IMG/VR virus record: IMGVR_UViG_3300028173_000014
Coordinates: 1-57,959 of that record
DNA from: a virus
Length of the DNA stretch: 57,959 nucleotides
Reading direction: 5' to 3' (one strand)
Positions 2,038-29,399 of the stretch are shown piece by piece. The position numbers and the translations under genes are program-made. The notes under the pieces are model-generated. The model was not told the DNA's origin, searched no databases, and saw only the letters and a program-made list of their open reading frames with translations. The number at the start of each line of letters is the position of its first letter. The first letter of the stretch is position 1.

Positions 2038-2629
2038 CTATTATAAATTCTTGAATACAATGTCGTATTCCCTTTGTAACTGGAGTTACTCTATGAAAAA
2101 ATATTGGTGAGAATACAATTAAAGTTCCCTTTTCTTGTGGAATTGTATAATACTCCATAGAATGTGGGTCTTGTATAGCAAATTGTGTTTTACCACCCTC
2201 ATATTCACTTGGGTCTGTTAATTGTACAATACACGCTAACTTTCTTAGAGAACTTTGGCCTGCATTAAAATCTGAATGCCAAGTATAAAAATCTTCAGTC
2301 TCTCCATTATACTGAATCATTTTTATATTGTTTTCTACTTCTTGAATATTAAAGTTCCAAGATAACTGATTCATTACTTTTGCAGATAAAAATAATTTCT
2401 GTTGTATGTCTGAATAATCACCCTTTGCATAATCTCTCATATCTTTATGTAAATACCATTCTTTAACACTTCTAAATTCTAAATTATGGTCTGAACCCAT
2501 ATGTGGTTCTATACAACCTGTTTCACCCTTTTCCGTACTTTTAACCCTTTCAATAAACTCATCACATTCTTCTGGTGTAAAGAAGTTTGGTTTTGTCATA
2601 TACCATTGAAAGTTTTCATTCTTTTTCAT
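2021..2629 (-). CDS. 2OG-Fe(II) oxygenase (tandem copy 2)
   Basis: This 202-residue paralogue has a complete active site: H118-x-D120 in TWHSDFNAG, H179 in FFHRVTPVTKG, and R189. It contains SEYEGGKTQF before the distal histidine. It overlaps the upstream copy by 4 bases (ATGA) and the downstream copy by 17 bases, so the four oxygenases form one tightly coupled operon. Substrate is unknown. Confidence 0.85.
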   Translation of the reverse strand: MKKNENFQWYMTKPNFFTPEECDEFIERVKSTEKGETGCIEPHMGSDHNLEFRSVKEWYLHKDMRDYAKGDYSDIQQKLFLSAKVMNQLSWNFNIQEVENNIKMIQYNGETEDFYTWHSDFNAGQSSLRKLACIVQLTDPSEYEGGKTQFAIQDPHSMEYYTIPQEKGTLIVFSPIFFHRVTPVTKGIRHCIQEFIIGDTFV

Positions 2630-3234: not shown

Positions 3235-3821
3235 CTAAAAGTATCTCCGTGTAACCAACCAACGATGGAATATCTTGAGCCAGAAAGTAATGGTGTAATT
3301 CTATGTATTACTAATGGATTAAAAATAATTACACTCCCCTTTTTTCTTGTACCCTTAACAAAACTATCACTATCTTTGGTTGTTAATGCAAACTCTAAAT
3401 CTCCACCATCATAATCATCACCATCTGATAATTGAACTATAACACTTAATTTTCTCGTTGATTCATCACCTTTACCAAAATCTGGATGCCATCCATACCC
3501 ATCACCCTTTACATATTTTAATAGTTTAAAATTCTCGTAAGAATCCCAATCAATATCGTAATTGAAATGTAGTTTATTAGCAACCTTAGTGAGATTTAAT
3601 ATTTTATCAGTAATTTTACTACTTTCTATTTGGAACTCTGTTGCTTTTCTGTAATCTCTAACCTCACTACCACTCAAACCAACAAGTTCAGCTCTACTAC
3701 CATTGGTATTGATTGTGTGTTGAGATTCACCAAAACTTTTATTTTTAATAAAATCTATTTCTGAATCACTTAGAAAGTTTTCCTTTTCAATATAATACTT
3801 AAAACCATTATTTTTTTTCAT
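3231..3821 (-). CDS. 2OG-Fe(II) oxygenase (tandem copy 4)
   Basis: This 196-residue paralogue has the full set H112-x-D114 (WHPDFGKG), H173 and R183, with DYDGGDL before the distal histidine. It is the first oxygenase transcribed after the Hint-domain protein at 3853-5400. A broken copy of the same gene type occupies the equivalent place after the second Hint protein (5848-6000), which suggests that Hint protein plus oxygenase once formed a duplicated cassette. Confidence 0.85.
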   Translation of the reverse strand: MKKNNGFKYYIEKENFLSDSEIDFIKNKSFGESQHTINTNGSRAELVGLSGSEVRDYRKATEFQIESSKITDKILNLTKVANKLHFNYDIDWDSYENFKLLKYVKGDGYGWHPDFGKGDESTRKLSVIVQLSDGDDYDGGDLEFALTTKDSDSFVKGTRKKGSVIIFNPLVIHRITPLLSGSRYSIVGWLHGDTFR

Positions 3822-3837: not shown

Positions 3838-3888
3838 CCTTTTGGTGGTAAGTTATGCACCACCACCACCTTTTGGTGGTAAGTTATG
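3838..3888 (-). repeat. 20-bp direct repeat at the 3' end of Hint gene 1
   Basis: CCTTTTGGTGGTAAGTTATG occurs at 3838-3857 and again at 3869-3888, separated by CACCACCACCA. The left copy carries the present stop codon. Without the 31-bp duplication the gene would read HNLPPKGP and stop at 3831-3833; with it the protein ends HNLPPKGGGGA. Confidence 0.9.
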
Positions 3889-5400
3889 AACTAATATATC
3901 ACTTGAAAAATAAGTATCAATATCCTCTACATCTAATGAATAGAAAGTTTCATCGGTAGTTACTTCGACTGTTGATGTTACTTCAATAAGGTTACCATCC
4001 TTATCCATTAGTTCATCACCAACTTCAATTTCAAATGCTCTAAGGAATTTATACTCATTTGCTCGTTTTACAAATATCATCCCCATCCAACCAAACTTAT
4101 AAGTATCATTTATTATATAATGTTCTGGTTGTACATTAGAAGATACCTCAAGTACAACTGAACCACTCGAAACACTATTGGTTAAATCTGTTGATGAATA
4201 TGCTGCAAAATCGTGGTCACTTAAACTCATTCCAACTGGTTGATATGATTTAACCACATCACCAACTTCTACATCTTGTATTTGTTTAGTACTACCATCA
4301 TACATACGAATTAAACTTCCACTCGGTGTTGTAGTACCTCTATTTGCAACCAGTTTCCACTTATACCAATCATTATCTATAGATGAACTTACACCTGTAG
4401 GTGGATTTATTTGTATGTATTGTGGACTATAATAAGAACACAATACTTCTGTATGTTGTGGTGTGAATAATATATATGCTCTACCAGTCCCTAAGTATTT
4501 ATTTCCATTACCATCTAAACTACCAGAAGATGGAATAAATTTTTCTGGATAAGTAGATATACCAGTACTCGTCTCGATATCATACCAATATGTCATACTG
4601 GTGTGAACGCGCTCTTTATAATCCGAATTTGATTCCCAAGTTTGTTCAACTCCATCCGCATCTGTATAGGTAGATGAGTATATATTTCTTTGTTCTGCAT
4701 TAGTTATATATGAGTTAAAACTTATATTGAATGGACTAACTAATAATGAACCATCTTCAGTTTTAGATTTTAAAACAAAATCTGGCCAAGTTCCTACTCC
4801 ACGATTAGCTGCAATTGATGATGAAGTAAAACCATCTATAAATGTCTCACCAACATTTGCACTCTGAAGTATAGTTCTAAATTTAGTTTTATCCATAGAA
4901 CCAGTAGCCATTGTATATAATGTATCATCTGCTCCGTAACCATTTGGTGTATCAACGAAAAGATGAAATTTACTTGAAGATGCCTCTACCCGAGAATTAA
5001 CATATGGTGCTGAACTATCATAAACAAAAGAAGAACTTATGTTATGATTAGCGAAACTTGCGGATATACTTGAAAGTTTAGTTTGTCTTGGATTTTGCAT
5101 ATCTGCCCAAGTAGAACCATAAATATTTACACTACTATAACTTTGTGTAACAGCATATTGTGCAATTCTATCAAAGAAATCCGAACCTTGTACTGATAAA
5201 GGTATCTGTACACTTGGATTTGTATTAAACTCAAATATTTTTGTATCATTACTACCACTCTCAATAGTAAAATCATATGCACCAATAAATGCTGAATAAC
5301 TATGATTTGGCCAATCTCCTGCACTACCTGTTATGTAATCACTAATTTCTTTTACTTTAGCGTTTACATCTGATTTTTGTGTATAATTTACTATACTCAT
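3853..5400 (-). CDS. Hint-domain (intein/hedgehog-like) protein 1
   Basis: The 515-residue protein has a Ser/Thr/Tyr-rich N-terminal region of about 350 residues without a recognised domain, then a Hint domain (about 356-506). Hint hallmarks are IRMYDGSTKQIQDVEVGD at its start, PEHYIIN as the block-B region, and DTYFSSDILVHN at its end. In true inteins Cys or Ser begins the domain and Asn ends it; here the equivalent first residue appears to be Thr and only nine residues (LPPKGGGGA) follow the Asn. This resembles stand-alone autoprocessing Hint domains more than a splicing intein. A late-type motif at 5431-5440 precedes the start. A paralogue lies at 5987-7534. Possible roles are self-cleavage or cross-linking of a virion or secreted protein, which is inference. 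Confidence 0.75.
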   Translation of the reverse strand: MSIVNYTQKSDVNAKVKEISDYITGSAGDWPNHSYSAFIGAYDFTIESGSNDTKIFEFNTNPSVQIPLSVQGSDFFDRIAQYAVTQSYSSVNIYGSTWADMQNPRQTKLSSISASFANHNISSSFVYDSSAPYVNSRVEASSSKFHLFVDTPNGYGADDTLYTMATGSMDKTKFRTILQSANVGETFIDGFTSSSIAANRGVGTWPDFVLKSKTEDGSLLVSPFNISFNSYITNAEQRNIYSSTYTDADGVEQTWESNSDYKERVHTSMTYWYDIETSTGISTYPEKFIPSSGSLDGNGNKYLGTGRAYILFTPQHTEVLCSYYSPQYIQINPPTGVSSSIDNDWYKWKLVANRGTTTPSGSLIRMYDGSTKQIQDVEVGDVVKSYQPVGMSLSDHDFAAYSSTDLTNSVSSGSVVLEVSSNVQPEHYIINDTYKFGWMGMIFVKRANEYKFLRAFEIEVGDELMDKDGNLIEVTSTVEVTTDETFYSLDVEDIDTYFSSDILVHNLPPKGGGGA

Positions 5401-5876: not shown

Positions 5877-6000
5877 CAGTTACACAACCATCTCTAACAA
5901 CTTCGGTATCTTTTATTGTCTGTAATATCTCATCACATTTTTCGTGTGATAGGAATGTTGGTATTTGAATTGAGAATTTAAATGCTTTATTTTCCCCCAT
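5848..6000 (-). pseudogene. Truncated 2OG oxygenase N-terminus (50 codons)
   Basis: A 50-codon frame starting at the ATG at 5998-6000, inside the last codons of Hint gene 2, begins MGENKAFKFSIQIPTFLSHE and continues KCDEILQTIKDTE. This matches the N-termini of the intact oxygenases (FQWYMTKPNFFTPEECDEFI in copy 2). It stops at 5848 inside the start of the GNAT gene, before any catalytic residue. It is best read as the remnant of an oxygenase that once followed Hint gene 2. Confidence 0.7.
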
Positions 6001-7534
6001 GTCCTGGCGCATTATGAACTAATATATCTGATGAAAAGTATGTATCAATATCTTCTACATTGAGTGAATAAAAAGTTTCAGTAAGATACTTCTCTTCCAC
6101 TGCAGTGACATCAATCCAATTACCATCTTTATCAAATAATTTATCATCCACTTCTACCTCATAACCTTTTCTAAACTGAAAGTATCCCAAACCACCCCTA
6201 TCCATATAGACTCCTGCTAATTGTGGAATCTTATAAGTATCATTTATCAAATAGTATAAATTTACTTCTTCTGAATGTACATCCACAACAACTGAACCAC
6301 TTGCAAAACTATCACTTACATCTGTAGAACTCCAACTTAAATAATTCATATCACTATCTGGCATTCCCAATGAACCAGAACCACCTGGTTGATACGATTT
6401 AACTACATCACCAACCTCTACATTTTGTACCAATTTAGTACTATTATCATACATACGAATTGTTGCACCATGTGGTGTAGATGGGCCTTGGTAGGGTTTT
6501 AATGTCCACTCGTACCAATCATTATTCAGAGATGAACTTACACCTGTTGGGGCGTTTAATAATGAAAACTTACTATTATAGTAAGTACCAAGTGTAATTA
6601 CTTTTTCGGGTGTTAATAATTGTACACTTCTACCATTACCTATGAATTTTCTTGCACCATCATCACTACCTGATGAAATAATATAATCCTCTACATAATT
6701 ACCCGTTCCATCTTCCACATCTATACCATAAAAGTGTTGCATACTCTCTGTGAATGGTGTACCCACACTCCAATTTACTTCATTTCCATCAGCATCTGTA
6801 AAAACACTTCCGGTTAGCTCTCTTACTTCTGCACTACTGATGTATGAATTAAATGAAATCGAACCATCAGCTGTAACCATAAATGATGCATGTTTAGCTA
6901 AATCTTTTAAAACATAATCTGGATAATCACTAACCCCTTTATTTGCTGCTATTGAAGCTGAATTAAATGCCCCAATTAAAGAATCACCACCAATTGGTGA
7001 TGCCCCAAGTATAGTTCTAAAACTTGTTTTAGTAAATGAACCACTTGATATCTGATACAAAGTATCATCCGTGTTACTTGGTGAAGCTACGAATACATGG
7101 AAACTCCCCGAATTTGAAGCAGTTCCTCTTTTTGCTAAGTATTGTGCTTGGTCTGTATAATTAAATGATGAACTAATATTATATTGAGCAAAACTTGCAG
7201 ATATTGTAGGTTGTGTTGCAGTAGGTGGATTATATGTTCCAAATTGAAAACTACCATATACTTGTACATCTGAATAACTTTGTGTTGAGGCATATTGTGC
7301 AATATCATCATATATGTTTCCATATAGACTACTCATCTGAGTACTATTGATTGCAGTATTCATCTCAAATACCTTTACATCATCACTACCACTTTCAATT
7401 GTAAAATCATAACACGCAAGTATTCCTGCGTAAGATGAATCAGGCCAACCACCAGCACTACCTGTAATGTAATTAGATAGTGATTCTAACTTCGTTTCTA
7501 CATCTGATTTCTGACTAAATATTGTTATTGACAT
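5987..7534 (-). CDS. Hint-domain (intein/hedgehog-like) protein 2
   Basis: This 515-residue paralogue of the protein at 3853-5400 shares the N-terminal pattern (QKSDV, then YITGSAGGWP, then YDFTIESGSDD) and the whole Hint domain. The Hint part begins near STPHGATIRMYDNSTK, contains VQNVEVGDVVKSYQP, and ends DTYFSSDILVHN followed by seven residues (APGHGGK). The apparent first residue is Ser. The histidine seen in copy 1 (PEHYIIN) is replaced here by Tyr (NLYYLIN), so processing chemistry may differ between copies. A late-type motif (7552-7563) lies just upstream. I recognise no domain in the first 350 residues. Confidence 0.75.
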   Translation of the reverse strand: MSITIFSQKSDVETKLESLSNYITGSAGGWPDSSYAGILACYDFTIESGSDDVKVFEMNTAINSTQMSSLYGNIYDDIAQYASTQSYSDVQVYGSFQFGTYNPPTATQPTISASFAQYNISSSFNYTDQAQYLAKRGTASNSGSFHVFVASPSNTDDTLYQISSGSFTKTSFRTILGASPIGGDSLIGAFNSASIAANKGVSDYPDYVLKDLAKHASFMVTADGSISFNSYISSAEVRELTGSVFTDADGNEVNWSVGTPFTESMQHFYGIDVEDGTGNYVEDYIISSGSDDGARKFIGNGRSVQLLTPEKVITLGTYYNSKFSLLNAPTGVSSSLNNDWYEWTLKPYQGPSTPHGATIRMYDNSTKLVQNVEVGDVVKSYQPGGSGSLGMPDSDMNYLSWSSTDVSDSFASGSVVVDVHSEEVNLYYLINDTYKIPQLAGVYMDRGGLGYFQFRKGYEVEVDDKLFDKDGNWIDVTAVEEKYLTETFYSLNVEDIDTYFSSDILVHNAPGHGGK

Positions 7535-12521: not shown

Positions 12522-15026
12522 TCAAAAAAATCTTTCAATACTTTGCTGTTTATCTACGACGGCTTCCCACCCCAAACTTTCGTAGAACATTCCTATCTTT
12601 TTACTCATTGCTTGTTCAAACATCTTAGTATGGTCAATGTTCGTTTTAATAAAATCTAATATTTGAGGCGGGTCCTCATATCCTTTATAACCAATTACAT
12701 CAAATCCAAATTCATTATTCTTTAGGTAAACCCACCTAATCTTATTACCATTAGTAATCTTCTCATACTTTCTACCTTCAAACCAATGATGTAATATAGA
12801 ATTATAATTTATTGCTGCTTTAACATGGACTGGTGCACCCTTTTTATATTTACTGAATGATGACTCTTCATCTTTAGAAATATATTTACCTATACCTTTT
12901 ACTCCGATAGGATTTGCCAATACACTATAATGTAGCATATGTAGATTCCTCTTAAACTTACTGATTCTTTCATCAATCTTTTCCTTTGGAACATCTGCCA
13001 ATATATCATCTAATACATTTTGTAATAAATCTTTCATCGCAGGAGCAAAATTACTTCTGACTGTATCCAAACCTTTTACTTGTGTTTTGTTTACCTTTCT
13101 ACCAGCATCATTGATGATTCGTAAACCATATCGTTTCTTCGTTACGAACAAACCTGTCTTTGCGATTACCTCTTGTTTGATATCAAACACGTGTTCATCT
13201 ATATTCAAAAATTTCTTGGCGAAATAATCGTAACTTAAATTTAGATAATCTTGTACCTCTCCACATATCTCCATAATTCTTTGTGTCATCATAGTTTCAG
13301 ATAATTTCTGATTTGGAAACCTTTTCTCAACTAATGGTACTGCGGATGCGAAAATAGAATCTGTATCAATATAGATAACATAATCCTTATCAGTACCTAA
13401 CTCTTTATTATAAAAGTGGTTGGTAATTTTCTTACTGAACTTAATCAATGATTGACCTGTGGTTGTGGTTGCTTCTGCATTATCTAAATCATAAAATCTA
13501 AATACTGGTAATCCCAATACACCATATAATGAATTTAGAAGAATCTTCTGAAGATATTGTCTCCTATCAAAATATTGAGATTTCTTTTTATCACCTTGGT
13601 CGTGAAACTTCTTCACAAGTTTTCTCATCTCTACTCGTTCATTAAACCACTTTGTGAGTAGAGCAGGAATCAATCCTTGTTTATCAGTACGATACATAAC
13701 CCCATTACTTGATATACTTAATCCAGTCTCATCTAAATAACTCTCCAGTTCTGTATTGGTTATTTGTTGTATTTCCTTACCCTTTGTGTTAATCATAGAA
13801 TAAGTTTTCGTATGTCCTGTCTTTAGATACTGGTCTACATCCCATTCCAAAACCTGCCCAACCTTAGTTTCAGGTGAGATATTCAATGAACGAATAACAC
13901 TTGGATACATACTTGTGATATCTAAATCATAAACCCAATCGTGTTTACCTTTTTGTGGGTCTTGTACATATGCACCAGAGAACTTTTCATCATCCCCTCT
14001 TCGTTTAGGATTTCTTGGTTTGTTTGGTGCAACAATACCCATCTTTTTTAAATAAACTAATATCGCACCCTCTAAATATCTTGAACTCATAAACACATCT
14101 TCATATGGGACATGTCCTAAATGTGCTATACCACAAGCAACTCCGATATAATCCAACTTATCATTTAACTCCACAAGAATACGAACATCTCGAATGTTAT
14201 AATCTATAAACTTCTGTAAATCATTTTCAAATAAATCATTGAGTGTTCCATCATACTCAATTTTCTTCATACCAACTTCAACTTCACCAATGTAATCTAA
14301 ACGATAACTTGATTGTTGAATTGGCGAGAACTTTTTATATAATGCAAGATAATCTAACACACTAACACCTGCAATAACAAACTTCTTTTTGTATTCATTG
14401 TAATAACAATGTCTGATAGGTGATAGCATCTTTGCAACTTCTGAACCTAAAACTCTGACTGTTCTATTATATAGATACGGAATATCAAAATAATCAATGT
14501 TCCACCCACTTAATATTGTAGGATTTATTTCTGCGTATTTCTGATAAAATCTTGTCAATAATTCGTTTTCAGTTTTAAATAACTCTACTGATGTATCACC
14601 ATTTTCATAATTTTGTATAGTATTTTTAGAATCTAAAGTATAACATATATACTTTTTCATTATCTCATCATATATTGCAATAGATGTAATTGCAGTTTCT
14701 GCTTTTTCTACATCTGGAAAACCATCAACCACTTCCACCTCGATATCAAAATAGAAAGTTCTATTTCCCTCTGCAACATCATCCGAATCCGTGTATTGGT
14801 CAACTAAAAATCTTGTAGTGATTGGTACATCACTCTCATATAAACCTGGGTCATCATCATCCCAAGTGTACACCTTTTTAACTTTACTACCATCAAGTGT
14901 ATGATGTAAACCACTTGAATGTTTTACATATGCGTATTTTTTATAAGGTACAATAAGATGGCCTCTTCTGTCATCCCAAACATGCACTTTGTTTTTTCTC
15001 TTATCATAAAAAACATTTTGATACAT
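12522..15026 (-). CDS. 43: DNA polymerase, family B (T4 gp43-like)
   Basis: The 834-residue replicative polymerase has the three exonuclease motifs (TFYFDIEVEV, SGWNIDYFDIPYL, DYNIRDVRILVEL) and polymerase motifs A (LDITSMYPSVIRSL), B (QKILLNSLYGVLG) and C (YIDTDSIF). The C-terminal QQSIERFF looks like a clamp-binding tail (PIP-like). T4 gp43 is 898 residues. A strong promoter (15059-15088) sits directly upstream, after the terminator of the receptor gene. No intein or intron interrupts it. Confidence 0.97.
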   Translation of the reverse strand: MYQNVFYDKRKNKVHVWDDRRGHLIVPYKKYAYVKHSSGLHHTLDGSKVKKVYTWDDDDPGLYESDVPITTRFLVDQYTDSDDVAEGNRTFYFDIEVEVVDGFPDVEKAETAITSIAIYDEIMKKYICYTLDSKNTIQNYENGDTSVELFKTENELLTRFYQKYAEINPTILSGWNIDYFDIPYLYNRTVRVLGSEVAKMLSPIRHCYYNEYKKKFVIAGVSVLDYLALYKKFSPIQQSSYRLDYIGEVEVGMKKIEYDGTLNDLFENDLQKFIDYNIRDVRILVELNDKLDYIGVACGIAHLGHVPYEDVFMSSRYLEGAILVYLKKMGIVAPNKPRNPKRRGDDEKFSGAYVQDPQKGKHDWVYDLDITSMYPSVIRSLNISPETKVGQVLEWDVDQYLKTGHTKTYSMINTKGKEIQQITNTELESYLDETGLSISSNGVMYRTDKQGLIPALLTKWFNERVEMRKLVKKFHDQGDKKKSQYFDRRQYLQKILLNSLYGVLGLPVFRFYDLDNAEATTTTGQSLIKFSKKITNHFYNKELGTDKDYVIYIDTDSIFASAVPLVEKRFPNQKLSETMMTQRIMEICGEVQDYLNLSYDYFAKKFLNIDEHVFDIKQEVIAKTGLFVTKKRYGLRIINDAGRKVNKTQVKGLDTVRSNFAPAMKDLLQNVLDDILADVPKEKIDERISKFKRNLHMLHYSVLANPIGVKGIGKYISKDEESSFSKYKKGAPVHVKAAINYNSILHHWFEGRKYEKITNGNKIRWVYLKNNEFGFDVIGYKGYEDPPQILDFIKTNIDHTKMFEQAMSKKIGMFYESLGWEAVVDKQQSIERFF

Positions 15027-15058: not shown

Positions 15059-15088
15059 AATATAACACTAAAACCATATACTTGTCAA
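15059..15088 (-). promoter_or_regulatory. Promoter of gp43, TTGACA-18 bp-TATATT
   Basis: TTGACA (15083-15088, minus strand) and TATATT (15059-15064) are separated by exactly 18 bases, about 30 bases before the gp43 start. The upstream AAAAAAGTACTTGAC matches the promoter at 352-381. Confidence 0.75.
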
Positions 15089-15104: not shown

Positions 15105-15129
15105 TGGGGGATATTTTTTCAATCCCCCA
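15105..15129 (-). terminator. Terminator after the TonB-dependent receptor gene
   Basis: A perfect 8-bp stem, TGGGGGAT (15105-15112) with ATCCCCCA (15122-15129), lies 11 bases after the receptor stop codon and is followed on the minus strand by TTTATC. The U-tract is short but the stem is GC-rich and precisely placed before the gp43 promoter. Confidence 0.7.
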
Positions 15130-15139
15130 AATCACCATT

Positions 15140-17878
15140 TTAAAAATCAATAGTTAATCCTATGTTTGCATATCTTGGTGTTCCAAGAAATACTTCAGAA
15201 TTATGAGCTAAGTGAAGTTTATCACCATACCCATTGTATTGACTATTATCAACTGCATCTTGTACATAAACTTCATCAAGTGCGTTAAAGATGTGACCTG
15301 TAATAGTCAAATCTAAACCAGCAATACTTGGAAGTTTGTAAGATGCGTGTAAATCAAGTTTTGAGTAACCAGGAGCTTCCCAAACTTGTGTTCTATCTGC
15401 AACTCCATCAGAATCCACTTCTCTTGAACCAGGACTCCAATCTGCATAGTTCTTATCATATACATTGTAAAGTGCTTGTACTCTCAATCCCTTAATAGGT
15501 TTAAGTGTTACACCCAATATATAAGATGATTGTGGTTGGTCACCAACAAATAACCCATCAAGTGCATATGCATATTCAGTAGTTTGATAACCAATTACTT
15601 GGTTGTCATCGTTATATTGAGATTCTTGGTAAGTACCATTGGCATCACCATCGAACTTCCAACCACCGAAAGAAGCAATCAAATCAAGTTCTACCATTTC
15701 GTGTGGTAATACTTTTACTTCAACTTCTGTACCTCTATGTTTCTGATTAACACCTCTTAAAAAGATTACATCAGTATCACCTGAATCTCCTTGACCCGTG
15801 TCAACATTACGAGTAAGGTTTCTATCTTTCCAATCTGTGTTATAAGCAGATACTTTCACGGCAACTTTATCGTTTGCATATCCAACACCAACTTCTGTTG
15901 ATAAGAATTTCTCATTGTCTGGGTCGGATGCGACCGTACCAGAATAATCAATTACATTATCAAGAATTGGTGCTTTTTCCACATATCCTGAATTTATAAA
16001 AGTAGTAACACCATCTAACCATTCATAGTGTACTCCACCTTTAACTTGATATGATGAAATAGCATCAGCAGTAATTTTCTCGTTTTCTACTGAAAAATGG
16101 TCTTGATATGAATATTTAATAGATGATATTCCACCCATTCCATATACATTTAGATTATCTTTCGTGTAGTTACCTTGAACAAATCCACCTAACCAATCGA
16201 CAGTAGTAGTGTTATGATAAGCAATAATATCACCTAACCCAACAACTTTTCCATCTGGTGCATTGTCATCAGCAAAATCAACATAGTAATCACCACCTAA
16301 TAAATCACGAACTTCACGAGCGTGTTCTATTTCAGCAGTTCTCCAATCGATACCAGTTTGAAATTCTAAATCTTCATTAACTTTATAATTTAATTTAGAA
16401 ATTAATCCATATGTATCTTGTCTGTTGATTGAGTTTCTAAGAATACCTGTAGAACGATGGTCTGTTTCAGAATAATCAGCATCGATATTAGTACGATTCT
16501 GTTCAATCTCTCCATTCCAATCCCACATCCAAGGCGAACTTGAATACCAAGCATTATCTGCTACGGCTGGTGTTCTCATTACACTACCATAAGTTCCTGT
16601 TCCACCACCTGAACCACCACTCCAATAAAGAACTGATGATAATTTAGTTTTATCATTTATCTCTAAAAAGTGATTTAGATTCACTAATGGTTTATGGAAG
16701 AAATTCTCCCTTTCATTAAGAAAGTTTGAATTTTTTCTTTTGGTTGTGTTTGCTCCATACATATACCAATATTGTTCTCCAGTATAGTCGGAACTAACTG
16801 GTGCCCAATTTTGACTAAAGAATCTACCAGCTTCAGTTTCGAATTTGTTACCCTCTGCAAAAGCATCAGTATCATATCCGTCAATATCACTTGCTAACTC
16901 TTGTGAGTAAGTAGCAATATTCTGTTTGTATAGATTTTGTCCGTGTCTTTGTGGTGCACCGATTGCGTACAACTCGAATCGTTGTTTATCGGATACTGCA
17001 TAAGAACTTCCAAAATAATAAGCCCAAGCATCTGTCCAGTTTCCATCAATGATACCATCACCAGTCTTACGAACAATTGTTCCAGCCAGTGCAAGTTTAT
17101 CACCAATCAAACCTGAATTGTAGTTAATAGTAGTTTTAATAAAACCACCATCTCCTGCTTCTTGTTTGAACTTACCACCCTTTTCGTATTTAGCAGGGTC
17201 TGTAATGATATTCATAGTTCCACCAATAGAAGGTGTGGCAAGATTTACAGCTGATAGTCCTCTTTGTAACTGAATTGATTGAGCAGCATCTGCAACCCCA
17301 TCCCAATTACTCCAATAAACCCATCCGTTCTCCATATCATTTTGGGGAACACCATTAATCATCACCGCAACATTTCTTTGGTTAAACCCTCGTACATTAA
17401 TACGAGCATCACCAGCACCACCACCTTGTTGAGTTGCATATACACTTGGTGTAGTATTCAAAGCCATTGGAACATCTTGACTACCAAGTCTAAGTTCCAT
17501 TTCTTCTTTACTAACCATTGAATAAGCAACAGGTGTTGTTGCAACAGCTCTTGAAGCCAAAACTTCAACATCTGTTAGAGTAAGAGCATCAATTGCCAAA
17601 GCAATATTCACTTTTACTTCACTATCACCCACAACAACCTCTTTAGATTGAGATGAGTATCCTATGAATGAAGCAGTAATAGTATAAGTTCCAGCTTCTA
17701 CTGAAATTGTAGTAAGACCTGTCTCGTTAGTAACACCACCGAGTTCAGTTCCCTCTACCACTACATTTGCTCCAACCAAAGGGTTATATTCAACATCTTT
17801 AACATCAACAACAATGGATTGAGCGAACAATCCTGTCATCAATACGAAAGATGCTATTAGTTTACGATATATATTCAT
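15140..17878 (-). CDS. TonB-dependent outer-membrane receptor
   Basis: This is a full-length 912-residue TonB-dependent receptor. In order: a signal peptide (MNIYRKLIASFVLMTGLFAQ), a carboxypeptidase-regulatory-like domain (about 22-95), a TonB-box-like stretch (LTLTDVEVLASRA), a plug domain with INVRGFNQRNVAVMINGVP, and a beta-barrel ending YANIGLTIDF with the terminal aromatic expected of the assembly signal. Such receptors import siderophores, B12 or glycans in Gram-negative bacteria, and serve as phage receptors. The regulatory-domain architecture is typical of Bacteroidota and relatives. The gene is intact and shares the strand of flanking phage replication genes. It has its own putative promoter and terminator, so it resembles a moron acquired from a host. 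Possible roles are receptor masking, superinfection exclusion or nutrient uptake; all are inference. Confidence 0.93.
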   Translation of the reverse strand: MNIYRKLIASFVLMTGLFAQSIVVDVKDVEYNPLVGANVVVEGTELGGVTNETGLTTISVEAGTYTITASFIGYSSQSKEVVVGDSEVKVNIALAIDALTLTDVEVLASRAVATTPVAYSMVSKEEMELRLGSQDVPMALNTTPSVYATQQGGGAGDARINVRGFNQRNVAVMINGVPQNDMENGWVYWSNWDGVADAAQSIQLQRGLSAVNLATPSIGGTMNIITDPAKYEKGGKFKQEAGDGGFIKTTINYNSGLIGDKLALAGTIVRKTGDGIIDGNWTDAWAYYFGSSYAVSDKQRFELYAIGAPQRHGQNLYKQNIATYSQELASDIDGYDTDAFAEGNKFETEAGRFFSQNWAPVSSDYTGEQYWYMYGANTTKRKNSNFLNERENFFHKPLVNLNHFLEINDKTKLSSVLYWSGGSGGGTGTYGSVMRTPAVADNAWYSSSPWMWDWNGEIEQNRTNIDADYSETDHRSTGILRNSINRQDTYGLISKLNYKVNEDLEFQTGIDWRTAEIEHAREVRDLLGGDYYVDFADDNAPDGKVVGLGDIIAYHNTTTVDWLGGFVQGNYTKDNLNVYGMGGISSIKYSYQDHFSVENEKITADAISSYQVKGGVHYEWLDGVTTFINSGYVEKAPILDNVIDYSGTVASDPDNEKFLSTEVGVGYANDKVAVKVSAYNTDWKDRNLTRNVDTGQGDSGDTDVIFLRGVNQKHRGTEVEVKVLPHEMVELDLIASFGGWKFDGDANGTYQESQYNDDNQVIGYQTTEYAYALDGLFVGDQPQSSYILGVTLKPIKGLRVQALYNVYDKNYADWSPGSREVDSDGVADRTQVWEAPGYSKLDLHASYKLPSIAGLDLTITGHIFNALDEVYVQDAVDNSQYNGYGDKLHLAHNSEVFLGTPRYANIGLTIDF

Positions 17879-17902
17879 AAATCGTCTCCTCTGTTTGTTT
17901 TG

Positions 17903-17932
17903 TTAAGACACATTTTTTACCAGGTGTGTCAA
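17903..17932 (-). promoter_or_regulatory. Putative promoter of the receptor gene, TTGACA-18 bp-TCTTAA
   Basis: TTGACA (17927-17932, minus strand) is followed after 18 bases by TCTTAA (17903-17908), about 25 bases before the receptor start codon, whose ribosome site is GAGGAG. The -35 box and spacing match the other promoters; the -10 box is weak. Confidence 0.5.
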
Positions 17933-17937
17933 CTGCC

Positions 17938-17959
17938 TGTGTATGTGAAATCATACACA
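17938..17959. repeat. Inverted repeat next to the receptor promoter
   Basis: TGTGTATG (17938-17945) and CATACACA (17952-17959) form a perfect 8-bp stem with a 6-base loop. It lies between the ribonucleotide reductase stop and the receptor -35 box. It has no U-tract, so it could be an operator or a weak terminator or stabiliser for the nrdJ transcript. Confidence 0.5.
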
Positions 17960-17962
17960 TAT

Positions 17963-19984
17963 TTAGTTTGCGTAATCTTGGTCATCATTATCACCAGTCG
18001 TAGGTGTGATTTCTATATCACAAAAATCACCATCACAAAACTTCTCTACATTAGCTTCTTCTGCTTTGATTACACCAAAGTTTAGTTTACCTAATTTCTT
18101 AACATCTTTATTATATTGGTTTTCATCAATTGCTTCATATGGCATTTGTTTGTATGCTCCATAATCATGTCTTGGTAGTAATGAAATACCCTTCAAATGA
18201 TATTGGTAATAGTTTAATACTTGTGGTATCATTTCTCCCTCTGTTTCAGGATTAAATGTGACCGTACAACTTACTTGATTATCAGCCCAATGTCTTTGCA
18301 TAAATGCTGCTAATGAGAATTGTTCCCATATGGATAACTCTCCGACTGTTCTAATTCCCTCTCCTACATCGACAGGAACTTCAACAACCATAGTGGTATC
18401 CTCTGAACCAAACGCAGGTTCTACTTTATATCCTGCCTTTTTCAAAGGTTCTAACAAATCTGAATGTTTCGATACTCTAATTCTTCTTGTATAGAATCTT
18501 GATTCTGGATAATGTAATCCAGGTGTTGAACCTGCTAATAGTGATACTGTCCCACTTGGTTTAACACTTGTAGTCTTAATTGATTTTGGTACTGCAAACC
18601 AATCTGAATACATTTTATCCCACTCTTGTATGGTATCATATCCATCTTCCAACCAAGTCTTTAACTCGTGTAATCCACGATTAGTTATGAACTGAGCAAT
18701 TCCACTCACACTACATCCAATTCTTCTGTTTCTCAACATAACTCTATTTGTATCACTCCAATGAGTTCTACCAAGTGTTACAGTTTTTGCATACAAATAT
18801 GCATATTTTAAAGTTCTTTTATAATCCTCTAATGAGTCGTGATTGTTTGGGAATGTTTCCACTAAACAACATAATTCATAACTTTCTAATGATTGTTCTA
18901 AACAAGGATTACCACCCGCAACTCTATGGTCTTTATCATCTCCACCATTCTTCATACGAGAGTATTTTCTCATGTTGTCTAACCACGCAAATCCAGGCTC
19001 ACCATTATCATTAATTCTTTTTGATGCCTCTGTATAATCCATACCGAGTTCTGCAAATATTGAATTATTAGACGTCCAACCATATTGTTCTCTGTGTGGA
19101 TTTACTTTATAATTCTTTAAATCTAAGTATTCTTCTGAATTAGGGTCTCCAAATACAATCTCAGCAGTTCTTCTAACATTTCCTGCCACTACACACTTAC
19201 CGATTAAATTCATAATATCTACGATTGTTGTGATTGTTATTGGTTTTCCACTATTAGCTTCTAATGTTTCTCTAACAGTCTCGTGTACTTCCATTAGTGG
19301 TTCAGGACCTGAACTTACTCCACCAAAACCTTTGATTGGTTCACCTGCTAATCTGACTAAACTATAATCAAATACAACTTCTCCCTGTCCGTGAAAATAA
19401 CTTTCTAATAAAAGTTGTAATGATTCTACCCAACCCTCACGAGTATCTGGTATTTGAAAGTTTTGTTCATCTCGTTTGATATCAATACCTTTAATATCTA
19501 TCTCTCCAGCACCTTTAGTATCAAATCCTACTCCAACACCTAACATTGAAGCATCCATAAGGAAACAAAATGGTTTTGCGTAATCTTCTTTGATTGTTTT
19601 AGTGGATACGAATGCACAATTGTTTAGTGCTGCATACAAACCCTTTTCTTCTGTGATTGCTGTTCCCATCGCCCATAAACCACGACCTGGTGGTAAGAAC
19701 TTCATTGTAAAGATTCTTTCGTACATATCTTGTGCTGATTTTTGTGCTTGCCATGGATTCCAACCTAATTGGTGAGATTCAATCCAATTCATTTGCATTG
19801 TATAAGTTCCCTCTACAACTCTTTTGACGGTTTCCCACCATCTCTCGTTTTTCCCATCTTCTTTAATACGTGAATACGTTCTCATATAAACTAATTCACC
19901 CAACCCATTGAAACCAAAAGGCGGTTTCTTTCTTTTATACTTATTAATAAAATTTTCTGATAATTTAAACTTATGCGTACCCAT
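17963..19984 (-). CDS. nrdJ: Adenosylcobalamin-dependent (class II) ribonucleotide reductase
   Basis: The roughly 673-residue protein matches the monomeric class II reductases. The active-site NPCLEQ carries the Asn, Cys and Glu of the catalytic centre. ALNNCAF and YELCCLVE supply the paired cysteines, and the C-terminal CDGDFC is the shuttle dithiol. It converts ribonucleotides to deoxyribonucleotides using coenzyme B12 and needs no second subunit or oxygen. I chose the ATG at 19982-19984: GGAGAG lies seven bases before it, while the first in-frame ATG (19997-19999) has no ribosome site. It supplies dNTPs for replication, alongside the thyX gene at 29399-30100. Confidence 0.93.
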   Translation of the reverse strand: MGTHKFKLSENFINKYKRKKPPFGFNGLGELVYMRTYSRIKEDGKNERWWETVKRVVEGTYTMQMNWIESHQLGWNPWQAQKSAQDMYERIFTMKFLPPGRGLWAMGTAITEEKGLYAALNNCAFVSTKTIKEDYAKPFCFLMDASMLGVGVGFDTKGAGEIDIKGIDIKRDEQNFQIPDTREGWVESLQLLLESYFHGQGEVVFDYSLVRLAGEPIKGFGGVSSGPEPLMEVHETVRETLEANSGKPITITTIVDIMNLIGKCVVAGNVRRTAEIVFGDPNSEEYLDLKNYKVNPHREQYGWTSNNSIFAELGMDYTEASKRINDNGEPGFAWLDNMRKYSRMKNGGDDKDHRVAGGNPCLEQSLESYELCCLVETFPNNHDSLEDYKRTLKYAYLYAKTVTLGRTHWSDTNRVMLRNRRIGCSVSGIAQFITNRGLHELKTWLEDGYDTIQEWDKMYSDWFAVPKSIKTTSVKPSGTVSLLAGSTPGLHYPESRFYTRRIRVSKHSDLLEPLKKAGYKVEPAFGSEDTTMVVEVPVDVGEGIRTVGELSIWEQFSLAAFMQRHWADNQVSCTVTFNPETEGEMIPQVLNYYQYHLKGISLLPRHDYGAYKQMPYEAIDENQYNKDVKKLGKLNFGVIKAEEANVEKFCDGDFCDIEITPTTGDNDDQDYAN

Positions 19985-20040
19985 TTTAAAACTCTCCATT
20001 TTTTGTCTTTTCTTTTATTTTCTTATACCCATAATACATA

Positions 20041-23914: not shown

Positions 23915-24688
23915 TTACGAGTTAAATAACTCATCAAAAGCATCACCAGTATTACTTACCTTAGATTTGTCAAGTTCAGCTACATTTCCTCCAACGGCTT
24001 TTGCTGTTGTTGATACTTCTGAATCTTCTTCAGTTGCATCACCATCAGGGTTTAACCATGTATTTAGTATATCTGTCATATCATCGTATGATAACTCTTG
24101 ATAGATTTCTGTAATGTCCTGTTGTTTCTTTACTTTTTCAAGTATATCAGGCTCATCAGAAATCGGTGATTGATTAGGTTTGACGCGAATGTTAGTTTTT
24201 GGATAACTTGCTCCACTCTCCTCAGCTGAGATAAACTCTACCGAAATATCACGACCATTAATTGGGTCTGTAATATCACCATAATCAGGGTCTGCGATTA
24301 CTGAAAGAAGTTCTTGATAAACTGTCTTTCCAAATCCCCAAAACTTCACACCTTGCGATTCTTCACCACGAACTATAACTGGAGCAAAAGTTCTCATCTT
24401 TGCTTCAAGTTTACGTGATAACTGATAATCTTCCTTATTGCCACTTGCTTTTAGTTTTTGAGCAAACTCTTCAATAGGGTCTGGTCTACCAAAAGAAATT
24501 GGTGATAAATAAGAGCGATTGCTCAGATTGTAGTGAAAAAACAATTCAATAAAAGGATTATCTTTATTGAATGAGTAAGGTACGATACGAATTTGAGTTT
24601 TACCTGGTTGTGGTTTCCAAAGACTGGAAGTCCGATTGTTAGTTGTTTGTAACTGCCCGAGGCGTTTTTTTATTGCGTTTAAATCCAT
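23915..24688 (-). CDS. 32: Single-stranded DNA-binding protein (T4 gp32-like)
   Basis: This 257-residue protein follows the gp32 plan: a basic N-terminus (MDLNAIKKRLGQLQ) for cooperativity, an OB-fold core (KTQIRIVPYSFNKDNPFIEL, then YLSPISFG), and an acidic tail ending DAFDELFNS that recruits partners. The zinc ligands of T4 gp32 are not obvious, as in other marine relatives. Its position beside uvsX supports the assignment. The structured noncoding stretch 24804-25390 lies immediately upstream. Confidence 0.85.
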   Translation of the reverse strand: MDLNAIKKRLGQLQTTNNRTSSLWKPQPGKTQIRIVPYSFNKDNPFIELFFHYNLSNRSYLSPISFGRPDPIEEFAQKLKASGNKEDYQLSRKLEAKMRTFAPVIVRGEESQGVKFWGFGKTVYQELLSVIADPDYGDITDPINGRDISVEFISAEESGASYPKTNIRVKPNQSPISDEPDILEKVKKQQDITEIYQELSYDDMTDILNTWLNPDGDATEEDSEVSTTAKAVGGNVAELDKSKVSNTGDAFDELFNS

Positions 24689-27250: not shown

Positions 27251-28515
27251 TAAAATCTCTTTGTTATATCCTTCATACTATGATAGTTATCACCCATAGA
27301 TACTTTTGTTGGATATTTCCCATTTTGTTCTAATACTTCTTTTACTTTTTTTAAGTATCCCAAACCATCTCCTTTTACATCAAAATCAAATAAAAAGGCA
27401 TCGTAATTATATAATACTAACCTACTACTATAATCTCCATTTTCTATAATGGGAATTAATTCTTTTACGATACGAATATTATTTTCAGTCTCCGATAATT
27501 GTATCATATAATTGAACAATTTATTCGGATTCATATCGTGCAAGTTCACCTTAACTATTTCTCTATTATAAATATCAGATTGAATACTTTTCGATGATTT
27601 CCATGTACTCCACAACCCATTTATAAACTCATCAACCCTACCAAAAAACGGGTTTTGTTTCATTTCGGTAGTTATACCACCATATAAATACTTAAATGTT
27701 AATTGTTTTCCCTCATCATAACCTAATCCATATGTTTTTGCTAGGTGATTATGTGCAGAACCTTTAGGGAATTTATAATCAATCATATCACCTATTAATC
27801 GTGGGTGATACGCATCAAAATCAAACTCTACCAATACCCCATGTTTATGTCTACTGATAAATTGTTTTCTACTACCATCCTTTTTATTTAATGCTGCAAA
27901 ATTCATTCCACCAAACCTATTACTTGGTCTACCCGTTAAAGTGTATGGATTATATTCTGAATAAACCATTTTATCATCTGTAGTGTATAATCCATTCTTT
28001 TCTATTTCATATAAAACTTCCAAGATAGTTTGGTCATATTCCTTTTCAAAATTCACCATCAATTCTTTTGATACCTTTTCAAAATACTCAGCATGCTTTA
28101 CCAACGGAATTATATCATTAACATTTTCTTTATCGTAATGTAATCTATAATTGTGGTGATGTGCAGTTGTTAAATGTTTATCAAAATCATATGGTTGATT
28201 TGTTTTCATATAATGACACCAATTCAAATCATAAACTTCATTAGAAGTTATCATAGAAATGTGCTTATGGGATTTTAAATCAGATACAAGCATTGGTGTA
28301 TCTATATTCAGATATTGTATATCTTCCGAAAATTTTTCATTATGATGAACTGGTACTATAAATTCTCTTGTCATAGTACGAATATAATAACAAGACACTC
28401 GATTGTCAAGTGGATGTTTATTTACATCTGAAAACATTTGTAGATATACAAATGGTTCTTTCTGTAATCTTTTAGATAAAGTTTCCCAACTATCTTGTGT
28501 ATTTACTATAACCAT
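27250..28515 (-). CDS. Small family-A-DNA-polymerase-like protein
   Basis: The 421-residue protein contains a divergent family A polymerase core. TLTGRPSNRFGGMNFAALN (about 192-210) matches the conserved TGRxSSxxPNxQN region. EFDFDAYHPRLIG (230-242) matches motif A with D232 and D234, but the usual steric-gate Glu is His. GKQLTFKYLYGG (269-280) matches motif B without its first Arg. LVLYNYDAFLFDF gives a motif C Asp (D372) without the following Glu. It is much shorter than Pol I and coexists with gp43. It may be a repair or lesion-bypass polymerase, or a catalytically altered relative. Confidence 0.65.
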   Translation of the reverse strand: MVIVNTQDSWETLSKRLQKEPFVYLQMFSDVNKHPLDNRVSCYYIRTMTREFIVPVHHNEKFSEDIQYLNIDTPMLVSDLKSHKHISMITSNEVYDLNWCHYMKTNQPYDFDKHLTTAHHHNYRLHYDKENVNDIIPLVKHAEYFEKVSKELMVNFEKEYDQTILEVLYEIEKNGLYTTDDKMVYSEYNPYTLTGRPSNRFGGMNFAALNKKDGSRKQFISRHKHGVLVEFDFDAYHPRLIGDMIDYKFPKGSAHNHLAKTYGLGYDEGKQLTFKYLYGGITTEMKQNPFFGRVDEFINGLWSTWKSSKSIQSDIYNREIVKVNLHDMNPNKLFNYMIQLSETENNIRIVKELIPIIENGDYSSRLVLYNYDAFLFDFDVKGDGLGYLKKVKEVLEQNGKYPTKVSMGDNYHSMKDITKRF

Positions 28516-29399
28516 TAATTTAATTTATTCTTCACATACATAACTATCTGTTCAGCAACTCTTATCTCAGTATATTTTTCCATTCCGAAGAATCCAGGTG
28601 ATGAATTAATCTCACATATTTTGTATCCATCATTATCATATAATAAATCTACACCACCTATATCTAAATTTAATAATTTTGTAGATTCTAATGCTAAATA
28701 TTCCATTTGTTCATCCAATTCTACTGGTTTTGCTTCTCCACCACGTGTGATGTTTGCTCTGAAATCTCCATCGGATGATTCCCGTTTCATTGCTCCAATA
28801 ACTTTACCCCCCACTACGATAATTCTTAAATCTCTACCAAACGAATCACTAACAAATTCTTGTAATATAATATTAAACCTATCATTAAATTGTTCCATCA
28901 TCTCTACTAATTGTTCGAAATTTGATTTTTTTTCTGAAAGATAAACACCCTTTCCATGTGTTCCACTTAATGATTTTACCACTATGGGGAATCCAATATT
29001 CCTCTCCACATAACTTGAATCAATTGGATTTTTAACCAACATAGTTTTTGGATGTGGTATATTATTCTGTGAAAGTATTTGCATTGTGTAGAGTTTATCC
29101 TTTACATTATCAATTGCATCTGAACTATTAATAAACAACACCCCCATACGTTCTAAGTGTCTGAATACTGCCTTCTGATAATATGTAGTGGATGAACCTA
29201 CTCTTGGAATTACAAAATCAGGTATTGTAGTGTGTTCATTTTCAACTAACACCGACCTTTTATTCTCTTTACTTATAAAGATATCAACATGATTTGGGTG
29301 TATTGCAAAACATTCTATACCCTCTTTTGCAAAACATTCTATTAATCTTTTAGTTTCATACGATGGGTTATCTTGTGTAGTAAATATCCAACCTTTCAT
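28515..29399 (-). CDS. ATP-grasp ligase, RimK-like
   Basis: The roughly 294-residue protein is a RimK-family ATP-grasp enzyme: FPIVVKSLSGTHGKGVYL (ATP-binding loop), LQEFVSDSFGRDLRIIVVGG, and the metal-binding ICEINSSPGFFGMEKYT. RimK adds glutamates to ribosomal protein S6; relatives ligate amino acids to small molecules. I start at the ATG at 29397-29399, which overlaps the thyX stop as TAATG and follows GGGAG, not at the longer upstream start. It has a one-base overlap with the polymerase-like gene. Another ribosome-related gene, bS21, lies at 54340-54543. Confidence 0.85.
   Translation of the reverse strand: MKGWIFTTQDNPSYETKRLIECFAKEGIECFAIHPNHVDIFISKENKRSVLVENEHTTIPDFVIPRVGSSTTYYQKAVFRHLERMGVLFINSSDAIDNVKDKLYTMQILSQNNIPHPKTMLVKNPIDSSYVERNIGFPIVVKSLSGTHGKGVYLSEKKSNFEQLVEMMEQFNDRFNIILQEFVSDSFGRDLRIIVVGGKVIGAMKRESSDGDFRANITRGGEAKPVELDEQMEYLALESTKLLNLDIGGVDLLYDNDGYKICEINSSPGFFGMEKYTEIRVAEQIVMYVKNKLN

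Follow-up and report, generated by a model that had tools for sequence, protein, structure and literature searches.

Phage genes that alter host metabolism mostly encode enzymes. Among the closest described systems, the 650-kb marine megaphage Mar_Mega_1, listed together with LR745206, is reported to carry a SusC-type TonB-dependent receptor with a proposed role as an uptake aid, and the accessible part of that paper describes no leader element for it (PMC9723777). The pelagiphage Skadi is described as having a protein annotated “TonB-dependent receptor protein,” which lies among tail and capsid genes and was read by its authors as a hint to the adsorption receptor (PMC10504331). In Flavobacterium, the outer-membrane TonB-dependent transporters PusCD, which are of the SusCD type and phosphate induced, are reported to be grouped with phosphodiesterases (PMC8115612). 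The gene 32 leader of T4 and RB69 is described as a pseudoknot of ∼28 nt that begins ∼61 to 67 nt before the AUG (PMC535899, PMC3014915), and the accessible portion of a 2010 review presents it as perhaps the sole viral pseudoknot in translation autoregulation (PMC3014915).

We analyzed 57,959 nt of DNA (the window), which represents positions 1 to 57,959 of the IMG/VR record IMGVR_UViG_3300028173_000014, a metagenomic contig of a T4-like phage. A TonB-dependent receptor gene is flanked by genes for a class II ribonucleotide reductase (RNR) and a family B DNA polymerase, all three on the same strand (Table 1), and Pfam matches of the flanks bear out the original prediction that the receptor sits between gp43 and RNR on the phage coding strand. 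Positions 15105 to 17932, the range of that prediction, comprise the receptor gene, the hairpin behind it, and most of the pseudoknot described below. As in Mar_Mega_1, a marine phage here encodes a TonB-dependent receptor, the difference being that Mar_Mega_1 is a megaphage with a SusC-type protein (PMC9723777, in its accessible part); LR745206 matches our receptor query over only 20%, with 29.6% identity. In two unannotated records of fecal phages, the match extends over 80% of the query, with 30 to 31% identity. The earlier statement that no well-characterized phage encodes a whole TonB-dependent receptor was too strong in view of Mar_Mega_1, Skadi, and the fecal records, and the phrase “phage-encoded TonB-dependent” was not found in the literature searched, which lies outside preprints and most subscription papers.

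Table 1. Features of the receptor locus and its flanks (window coordinates)
Feature	Position	Strand	Basis
Family B DNA polymerase (gp43-like), downstream neighbor	12522..15026	-	Pfam, phrog_262
Sigma70-like promoter of DNA polymerase gene, TTGACA-18-TATATT, 11/12	15059..15088	-	Scan
GC-rich hairpin after receptor stop, terminator-like, weak T run	15106..15128	-	Sequence
TonB-dependent receptor CDS, 912 aa	15140..17878	-	ORF, Pfam, AlphaFold model, structure matches
Predicted beta barrel, aa 231-912, C-terminal Phe	15143..17188	-	Model; aligned to BtuB, FoxA, FhuA
Plug domain, aa 113-230	17189..17542	-	PF07715 7e-15 over aa 113-221
Putative TonB box EVLAS, aa 105-109	17552..17566	-	Invariant in 60 phage sequences
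CarboxypepD_reg-like domain, aa 20-98	17585..17821	-	PF13715 4.1e-14, PF13620 3.5e-9; strands in model
Predicted N-terminal signal peptide, aa 1-19, ends LFA/QS	17822..17878	-	Hydrophobic stretch and cleavage site by eye; model helix 3-14
Shine-Dalgarno-like AGGAGA, 6 nt 5′ of ATG	17885..17890	-	By eye
Predicted H-type RNA pseudoknot in receptor leader	17907..17939	-	Covariation, 33 nt
Pseudoknot stem 1	17936-17939 with 17921-17924	-	Predicted pairing
Pseudoknot stem 2	17925-17930 with 17907-17912	-	Predicted pairing
A-rich loop of pseudoknot	17913-17920	-	Sequence
Window-type hairpin TGTGTATG/CATACACA, immediately upstream of and touching pseudoknot	17938..17959	-	Sequence
Class II RNR, upstream neighbor	17963..19999	-	PF17975, PF21995, PF02867; phrog_367

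The receptor gene is a single unbroken open reading frame (ORF) with an ATG start. The ORF, Pfam matches, and predicted structure agree with the earlier description of a complete receptor with signal peptide, regulatory domain, plug, and full barrel. Both the CarboxypepD_reg and Plug domains exceed Pfam cutoffs and, as expected for TonB-dependent receptors, the N-terminal plug (PF07715, also present in the model) is surrounded in the predicted structure by a C-terminal transmembrane barrel. Outer-membrane barrels usually end in phenylalanine, as this one does. The AlphaFold model, whose input included bacterial relatives, contains the whole plug and barrel (pLDDT, 85.8; pTM, 0.82) and supersedes a poor model from phage sequences only (pLDDT, 61.9); it aligns with solved TonB-dependent receptors over ∼500 to 640 residues (Z, 32 to 38). 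The plug is the most conserved part of the protein (0.935 across 14 phage rows and 0.944 across 18 donor-group rows). The conserved EVLAS is taken as a putative TonB box from its position and the known consensus, and TonB coupling with energized transport would be a prediction from it. SusC/RagA identity was rejected, as no such model appeared in an NCBIfam scan up to an E value of 0.1, and no SusD partner was found among the 20 window proteins run against Pfam (∼35 other window ORFs lie outside that set).

All 314 matched viral stretches encode receptor relatives, and the best 80 of these 314 are 71 to 100% identical. Frequencies refer to such sets (the best 80 of 314 for the receptor and the best 80 of 153 for the polymerase), and the genome scan refers to the best 80 of 571 matches listed. 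The receptor reads full length, defined as an open frame of >850 aa, in 118 of the 142 matching viral loci, some of which come from the same contig; in each of the remaining 24, the frame runs off a contig end. It sits between RNR and polymerase in 43 of the 49 loci that hold both flanking genes, and the other six have a glutamine synthetase-like gene or tRNA-Ala at that place. Chimeric assembly or bacterial contamination might account for a receptor in a metagenomic contig, but identical junctions, with the order RNR-receptor-polymerase, occur at 100% in five other contigs and also in many diverged ones, and relatives have a receptor-less version of the same site. These independent contigs refute an assembly chimera, and the probability of such an artifact is practically nil. 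The same gene, sought in related phage contigs as the original prediction had advised, was thus found, and the contig is not unique. Receptor and leader were found in further phage contexts as well, which, together with the receptor-less site, gives the predicted self-contained cassette a counterpart in cassette-like behavior. Pairwise dN/dS values range from 0.07 to 0.25 (15 pairs, 11 of them different) and, by this measure, the receptor is under purifying selection in phages.

Phylogenetic analysis placed all 60 phage representatives in one clade (SH-aLRT, 98) that is nested within Marinimicrobia (Fidelibacterota) and has one bacterial row inside. The receptor was probably captured once from Marinimicrobia; the tree proposed earlier as a way to find the donor has therefore named a phylum, which, judging from this one captured gene, is apparently also that of the host. 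Like auxiliary metabolic genes, the receptor appears host derived and is under purifying selection in phages. Strong matches were detected in 34 of 61 host-phylum genomes, 29 of them at 52 to 66% identity. The Marinimicrobia receptors have the same domains and plug as the phage copies and share loop residues with them, whereas the latter form their own clade and their leader pattern was found in none of 245 host-phylum genomes (an exact-pattern scan, which diverged elements would escape). In the long loops, 151 columns reach 90% conservation or more across 14 phage rows, and for 99.3% of these columns the consensus of 18 donor-group orthologues is identical. Across phages, loops, taken as extracellular by their length in the model independently of membrane orientation, show roughly the same conservation as strands and a higher one than short turns. 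Because of the purifying selection and the conserved long loops, we suggest that the ligand has not changed since capture.

The sigma70-like site before the polymerase gene, which had been predicted just after the receptor, reaches a score of 10 or 11 out of 12 in 35 of the 55 representatives and is thus kept in relatives. A promoter-like element with 18-bp spacing had also been claimed in front of the receptor, but within 110 nt upstream the best sigma70 scores of 58 representatives ranged from 7 to 9 out of 12, versus 5 to 10 for one shuffle each. Only 4 of the 60 representatives have TTGACA upstream of the receptor, and the window's copy lies inside the conserved pseudoknot. Behind the receptor, the predicted GC-rich terminator is present as a hairpin, and a strong hairpin follows the stop codon in 13 of 14 inspected loci (out of 60 representatives), but its T run is weak and the terminator scan did not list it. 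The receptor varies in presence at one site in relatives, as a moron would; because no sigma70-type promoter of its own was found, it is not one in the strict sense. The gene apparently closes the RNR transcript and has a pseudoknot in its leader.

That leader contains, between the RNR stop codon and the Shine-Dalgarno sequence, a predicted pseudoknot that begins 61 nt and ends 28 nt 5′ of the receptor start codon. In the alignment, 99.8% of cells are paired and 5 of the 10 pairs, from both stems, changed on both sides; with loop lengths left free, all 10 pairs form in 115 of 116 leaders. One of 117 leaders (L034) departs from the search string; inspected by eye, it retains part of stem 2 only. 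No shuffle out of 500 matched the covariation score, and two of five covariation measures resembled shuffles, namely both-side-changed pairs (16 of 500 as high) and the number of pair types (426 of 500). The leader includes strictly conserved columns, and TTCACATAC of the window-type hairpin is present in 71 of 117 leaders. Nested folding was no better than for shuffles (z, −0.87) with a program that does not handle pseudoknots and cannot settle the question. Overall, comparison of the leaders supports an RNA pseudoknot with compensatory changes in both stems.

We scanned for exact matches to the pattern from receptor leaders, which diverged elements, some receptor leaders included, escape; the scan covered at least 120 stretches, with 111 new loci examined. 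At 99 of 101 testable sites, the element was counted directly before a receptor, and the remaining two, where the match begins just past the distance limit (L276) or was placed by eye (L293), bring the total to 101 of 101. No Rfam family reached threshold in the whole window. For positions 17850 to 18000, Rfam 15 gave five matches up to an E value of 10, all unrelated and far under threshold; the preQ1-I riboswitch family, which was not among them, was rejected as a candidate. As described for gene 32, an H-type pseudoknot (33 nt here, beginning 61 nt before the start codon) is followed by a little-structured ribosome-binding stretch; unlike gene 32, the pseudoknot precedes the receptor gene and not the phage's own gp32-like gene at 23915 to 24688, before which the scan found none. 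It is by geometry that the leader resembles a gp32-like operator, and any binding by gp32 is putative.

We propose, with better than even confidence in the whole, that T4-like phages acquired a functional outer-membrane TonB-dependent receptor from a Marinimicrobia host on a single occasion and retained it for transport. From the gene order and the promoter scans, it would be cotranscribed with RNR during infection, and the pseudoknot, given its position, may meter receptor translation. The likeliest regulation would be a T4 gene 32-like translational operator to which a phage protein binds; a small-molecule sensor ranks next. The phage receptor would replace or supplement the host orthologue, keeping the residues of the long, presumably outward-facing loops, so that uptake of the same nutrient would continue in the infected cell during the shutdown of host synthesis.

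Which nutrient this might be was considered from several sides. The original prediction had suggested cobalamin for the adjacent B12-dependent RNR, and this would be consistent with RNR lying immediately upstream of 89 of 98 pattern-locus receptors with enough upstream sequence, with an identity-to-window correlation that is higher for receptor and RNR (0.77) than for receptor and polymerase (0.62), and with BtuB heading the structure matches (Z, 37.6, followed by FoxA at 35.8). However, many receptors matched and no ligand class stood out, and fold likeness to BtuB does not reveal the ligand. In addition, phages with RNR but without the receptor exist, as do receptors away from RNR. Of the 20 genomes from which the closest bacterial relatives come, 16 contain one cobalamin riboswitch each, and all seven scanned same-strand ORFs downstream of these have a Plug domain (three further scanned ORFs are on the other strand), but only 1 of the 16 loci matches the phage receptor, weakly (23.6% over 148 aa). 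No cobalamin riboswitch was found around the 18 nearest bacterial relatives within the sequence that their contigs cover. BtuB identity was therefore rejected for want of orthology to the riboswitch-linked receptors of donor relatives, and cobalamin uptake is a very unlikely function. Several close Marinimicrobia orthologues lie next to genes such as those for DNA polymerase III alpha, primase, and SRAP, which gave no ligand hint. A PF01663 phosphodiesterase-family gene lies directly 3′ of the receptor in 15 of 73 bacterial loci, whose orthologues are 45 to 51% identical to the phage receptor, and in no Marinimicrobia locus; these enzymes passed no NCBIfam cutoff. The arrangement recalls PusCD, with the difference that the neighbor occurs here only in some distant bacterial orthologues, and is a weak hint at an organophosphorus ligand. 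Because distant orthologues precede this gene and the phage gene lies among nucleotide-metabolism genes, an organophosphorus or nucleotide-type compound is our first guess, a doubtful one.

Transport itself has a competitor in masking, also raised originally, whereby the phage's copy would flood the surface or vesicles and capture rival phages or bacteriocins, or would take the place of the entry receptor. TonB-dependent receptors are common phage receptors, FhuA-pb5 and FhuA-Llp structures are among the structure matches, and the donor group's loop residues are kept, as a decoy would need; but the evenly conserved loops show no diversifying pressure, which does not favor an arms race, and the plug and putative TonB box are highly constrained though dispensable for a decoy. 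We regard this function as improbable. Somewhat less improbable, yet still unlikely, is a riboswitch function of the leader, of a preQ1-I-like or a new type, in response to the compound being imported. A small H-type pseudoknot with an A-rich third loop and strictly conserved columns, linked exclusively to one transporter in the pattern scan, would suit it, and the L028 phage lineage, which has the receptor, carries QueC and GTP cyclohydrolase. These two genes were, however, seen in only two of the loci searched and not in the window, preQ1 is absent from the Rfam matches, and the 3′ strand of stem 2 begins 25 to 42 nt before the ATG, leaving the Shine-Dalgarno sequence uncovered. The paired repeats could also act as DNA, since sites of dimeric regulators likewise give covarying inverted repeats. 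Two interleaved helices, each changed on both sides, an A-rich third loop, and a location between RNR stop and Shine-Dalgarno without a nearby sigma70-like promoter argue against such a site, which we consider quite improbable. A gene 32-like operator before a receptor retained for transport remains our preferred reading.

The captured receptor ties Marinimicrobia to a set of T4-like phages, and the conserved pseudoknot in its leader, both stems of which show covariation, falls under every Rfam threshold. As a tentative extension, which we hold to be less likely than not, the pseudoknot could be a phage invention and represent a novel type of viral cis-regulatory RNA that serves a single outer-membrane receptor. 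By means of it, T4-like phages infecting Marinimicrobia would sense the state of infection (the level of a phage protein or of the imported compound) and set the rate of nutrient uptake, with receptor and RNA moving as a unit between distant phages. The viruses described here, whose hosts apparently belong to a largely uncultured bacterial phylum, carry the cell's outer nutrient gate, and they do so as a whole lineage and not in one contig. These findings suggest that a large group of environmental T4-like viruses controls how the infected cell feeds.

The window corresponds to one entire record in IMG/VR (57,959 bases, viral). Because it encodes a family B DNA polymerase, a DnaB-like helicase, RecA/UvsX-like and gp32-like proteins, and a contractile-tail sheath, we read its phage as a probable T4-like myovirus. 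Genes for a RimK-type ATP-grasp ligase and a ThyX thymidylate synthase occur at 28515-29426 and 29399-30100, and the C-termini of two 515-aa proteins (5987-7534 and 3853-5400) are weakly intein/HINT-like, below Pfam cut-offs. The complete, undamaged phage-borne TonB-dependent receptor of the original prediction is borne out by an uninterrupted open reading frame with CarboxypepD_reg and Plug domains in Pfam. Receptor relatives were encoded by all 314 matched viral stretches (the best 80 of which were 71 to 100% identical), so the contig is not unique. The gene order ribonucleotide reductase (RNR)-receptor-polymerase recurs at 100% in five further contigs (L002, L003, L007, L082, and L083) and in diverged contigs with polymerase identity as low as 46%, ruling out a chimeric assembly. 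Full-length open frames were present in 118 of 142 loci with a plus-strand receptor match; the other 24 were all cut by a contig end, and none was interrupted. Some contigs contribute two of these loci, and at 95% the set comes down to 60 representatives. The receptor is thus neither chimeric nor rare among viral contigs. Thirteen named phage records also match it, and two unannotated faecal phage records do so over 80% of the query at 30 to 31% identity.

Coordinates of the receptor, its leader, and genes at the RNR-polymerase site (window positions unless a locus is named)
Feature	Position	Strand	Remark
Receptor ORF	15140-17878	-	912 aa, no interruption
H-type pseudoknot, two interleaved helices	17907-17939		Receptor leader; conserved block
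Glutamine synthetase-like gene	L011:7957-8943; L153:8955-9938		With or in place of receptor
tRNA-Ala	L150:7449-7522; L152:8946-9019
tRNA-Ala + tRNA-Gln	L061:12700-12924

A tree was built from 60 phage receptors and 80 bacterial ones (the best 80 of 571 matches). A single clade took in all 60 phage sequences (SH-aLRT, 98) and was nested in Marinimicrobia (Fidelibacterota), identifying the donor phylum among the sampled sequences. This is also the presumptive host phylum, in which 34 of 61 genomes have a strong receptor match, 29 of those 34 at 52 to 66% identity. The sole bacterial row within the phage clade, L158, is a 4.3-kb Marinimicrobia MAG contig whose receptor (986-3733) has as neighbors a DegT-type aminotransferase gene and the beginning of another receptor; the pseudoknot was not found on this contig. 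The position of L158 in the tree perhaps reflects transfer back from phage to host, or misbinning. Selection on the receptor is evident from dN/dS values of 0.07 to 0.25 (Nei-Gojobori; 15 pairs, 11 of them different comparisons).

A structure model built from 92 rows of phage and bacterial relatives had a mean pLDDT of 85.8 and a pTM of 0.82; an earlier model from 60 phage rows alone reached a pLDDT of only 61.9. Foldseek matched the model to the solved TonB-dependent receptors PqqU, Fiu, and FhuA, and VIA-align gave a Z of 37.6 against BtuB (rmsd, 2.7; 529 aligned), 35.8 for FoxA, 35.6 for Cir, and 35.1 for FhuA. For the predicted structure, these scores show a receptor fold, not a ligand. 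Among 14 phage receptors, conservation was 0.935 in the plug, 0.82 in long connections (assigned as extracellular purely by length), 0.81 in strands, and 0.67 in short connections. Of 151 long-connection columns that were ≥90% conserved in the 14 phage rows, 99.3% carried the consensus of the donor group (18 orthologues, 16 titled Marinimicrobia and two FCB group). Because these residues are common to the donor group, the phage receptor most likely binds the same ligand as the host receptor.

Cobalamin, the ligand originally put forward as an example, is disfavored. Of the 20 genomes from which the closest bacterial relatives come (among the matches listed), 16 have one cobalamin riboswitch each. 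Of ten ORFs scanned beside nine of these riboswitches, seven were downstream on the same strand, all with a Plug domain, and three were on the opposite strand. Just 1 of the 16 riboswitch loci, which contain only the first half of their receptors, matched the phage receptor, weakly (23.6% over 148 aa), and no cobalamin riboswitch occurred near 18 close bacterial relatives within contig reach. An organophosphorus-type ligand is at most a lead from neighboring genes: of 73 bacterial loci whose sequence extends >500 nt downstream, 15 have a gene of the PF01663 phosphodiesterase family (assigned by Pfam on one member and by sequence clustering for the others) within 400 nt behind the receptor on the same strand. 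The pair recurs across several bacterial phyla (e.g., L192:12796-14007), with none in the Marinimicrobia loci among the 73, and the enzymes fall below NCBIfam cut-offs. Phosphate-induced loci described in Flavobacterium group TonB-dependent transporters with phosphodiesterases (PMC8115612).

Upstream of the receptor, all 58 representatives with sufficient sequence share the block CAGG-CAGNN-GACACA-CCTG-(A-rich)-TGTGTC, which forms a pseudoknot with 99.8% of cells paired (58 sequences, 54 distinct), compared with 20 to 57% in slid controls. Changes on both sides affect 5 of the 10 pairs, spread over both stems, with 2, 3, 5, 9, and 6 state changes on the receptor tree. None of 500 shuffles reached the percentage paired, the count of double-changed cells, or the covariation score. 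Two weaker measures do not stand out: as many pairs with changes on both sides arose in 16/500 shuffles, and as many pair types in 426/500. With loop lengths unconstrained, all ten pairs form in 115 of 116 leaders; one additional leader, L034, was not matched by the search string. The 3' strand of stem 2 begins 25 to 42 nt upstream of the receptor ATG. Directly past the RNR stop, TTCACATAC (17938-17959; seen in 71 of 117 leaders) folds in the window as a hairpin adjoining the pseudoknot.

An exact-pattern scan of viral contigs returned at least 120 stretches. At 99 of the 111 new loci examined, the site was directly upstream of a receptor match, and 10 were too close to a contig end; two were left uncounted (in L276 the match starts just past the distance limit, and in L293 a receptor N-terminus was recognized by eye). 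RNR precedes 89 of 98 of these receptors with sufficient upstream sequence and is lacking before 9, so the leader is tied to the receptor, not to the genomic site. The exact pattern, which variants would escape, was absent from 245 Fidelibacterota genomes, and no pseudoknot was seen by eye before 80 bacterial relatives (the best 80 of 571, a few with short upstream sequence). Rfam gave nothing at gathering scores over the window and, up to E 10 on 17850-18000, five matches to unrelated families, all well short of threshold (best E, 1.2). The open-licence literature searched yielded no report of a lineage-wide phage receptor or of this leader; TonB-dependent receptors are noted in the marine phages Mar_Mega_1 and LR745206 (PMC9723777) and Skadi (PMC10504331), and Lentisphaerae phages are described as carrying ExbB, the TonB-system energiser (PMC11361711). 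A library of predicted viral structures held one further full match, SusC of an uncultured marine phage.

The promoter-like element originally assigned to the receptor belongs to the pseudoknot: TTGACA occurs upstream of the receptor in only 4 of the 60 representatives, and the sigma70 scores in front of the gene (7 to 9 of 12 in 58 representatives) are no different from those obtained after shuffling each sequence once. The promoter proposed before the gp43-like polymerase fared better: 35 of 55 representatives have a sigma70 site there that scores 10 or 11 of 12. Among 14 loci inspected from the 60 representatives, 13 have a strong hairpin behind the receptor stop; L061, the exception, has tRNA genes in that place. 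Given the shuffle-level scores in front and the hairpin behind, we infer that the receptor closes the RNR transcript by read-through, without a sigma70-type promoter of its own.

The receptor sits between RNR and polymerase in 43 of 49 loci holding both flanking genes (from the best 80 of 153 polymerase matches). In 4 of the 6 receptor-less loci (L153-L156, near copies of one another by spacing and identity, with L153 alone read whole), a glutamine synthetase-like gene replaces the receptor, and the other two carry tRNA-Ala; receptor and glutamine synthetase-like gene occur together in L011, L044, L145, and L151 (Pfam check on L011 only). Because its occupants vary in this way, the RNR-polymerase interval is a cargo site. 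Three receptors (L028, L029, and L039) have a different context, which in L028 comprises HSP20, QueC, and GTP cyclohydrolase genes. There (L028:11396-13709), QueC and GTP cyclohydrolase I are accompanied by a radical SAM protein that gave a weak match and looks QueE-like on inspection, a combination that suggests 7-deazaguanine DNA modification.

Across 31 representatives carrying all three genes, Mantel correlations were weak for receptor-polymerase (r = 0.27), 0.46 for receptor-RNR, and 0.42 for RNR-polymerase, each exceeding 999 of 999 shuffles. In 45 pairs, receptor identity was >80% despite polymerase identity of <62%. We read this pattern as probable receptor exchange between phages, to which slower receptor evolution can contribute. 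Receptor and polymerase agreed on the nearest neighbor in 13 of 31 cases, receptor and RNR in just 9 of 31; this argues against RNR and receptor traveling as a single block.

In T4 and RB69, the leader of gene 32 contains a pseudoknot, of comparable size and distance, that is described as bound by gp32, nucleating cooperative repression (PMC535899, PMC3014915). Here, unlike in gene 32, the gene behind the pseudoknot is a receptor, and no such element was seen in a scan upstream of this phage's gp32-like gene; the likeness may therefore be one of working principle only. In the favored reading, the leader would set translation of the phage receptor, and a functional nutrient receptor supplied by the phage would keep the infected cell provisioned.
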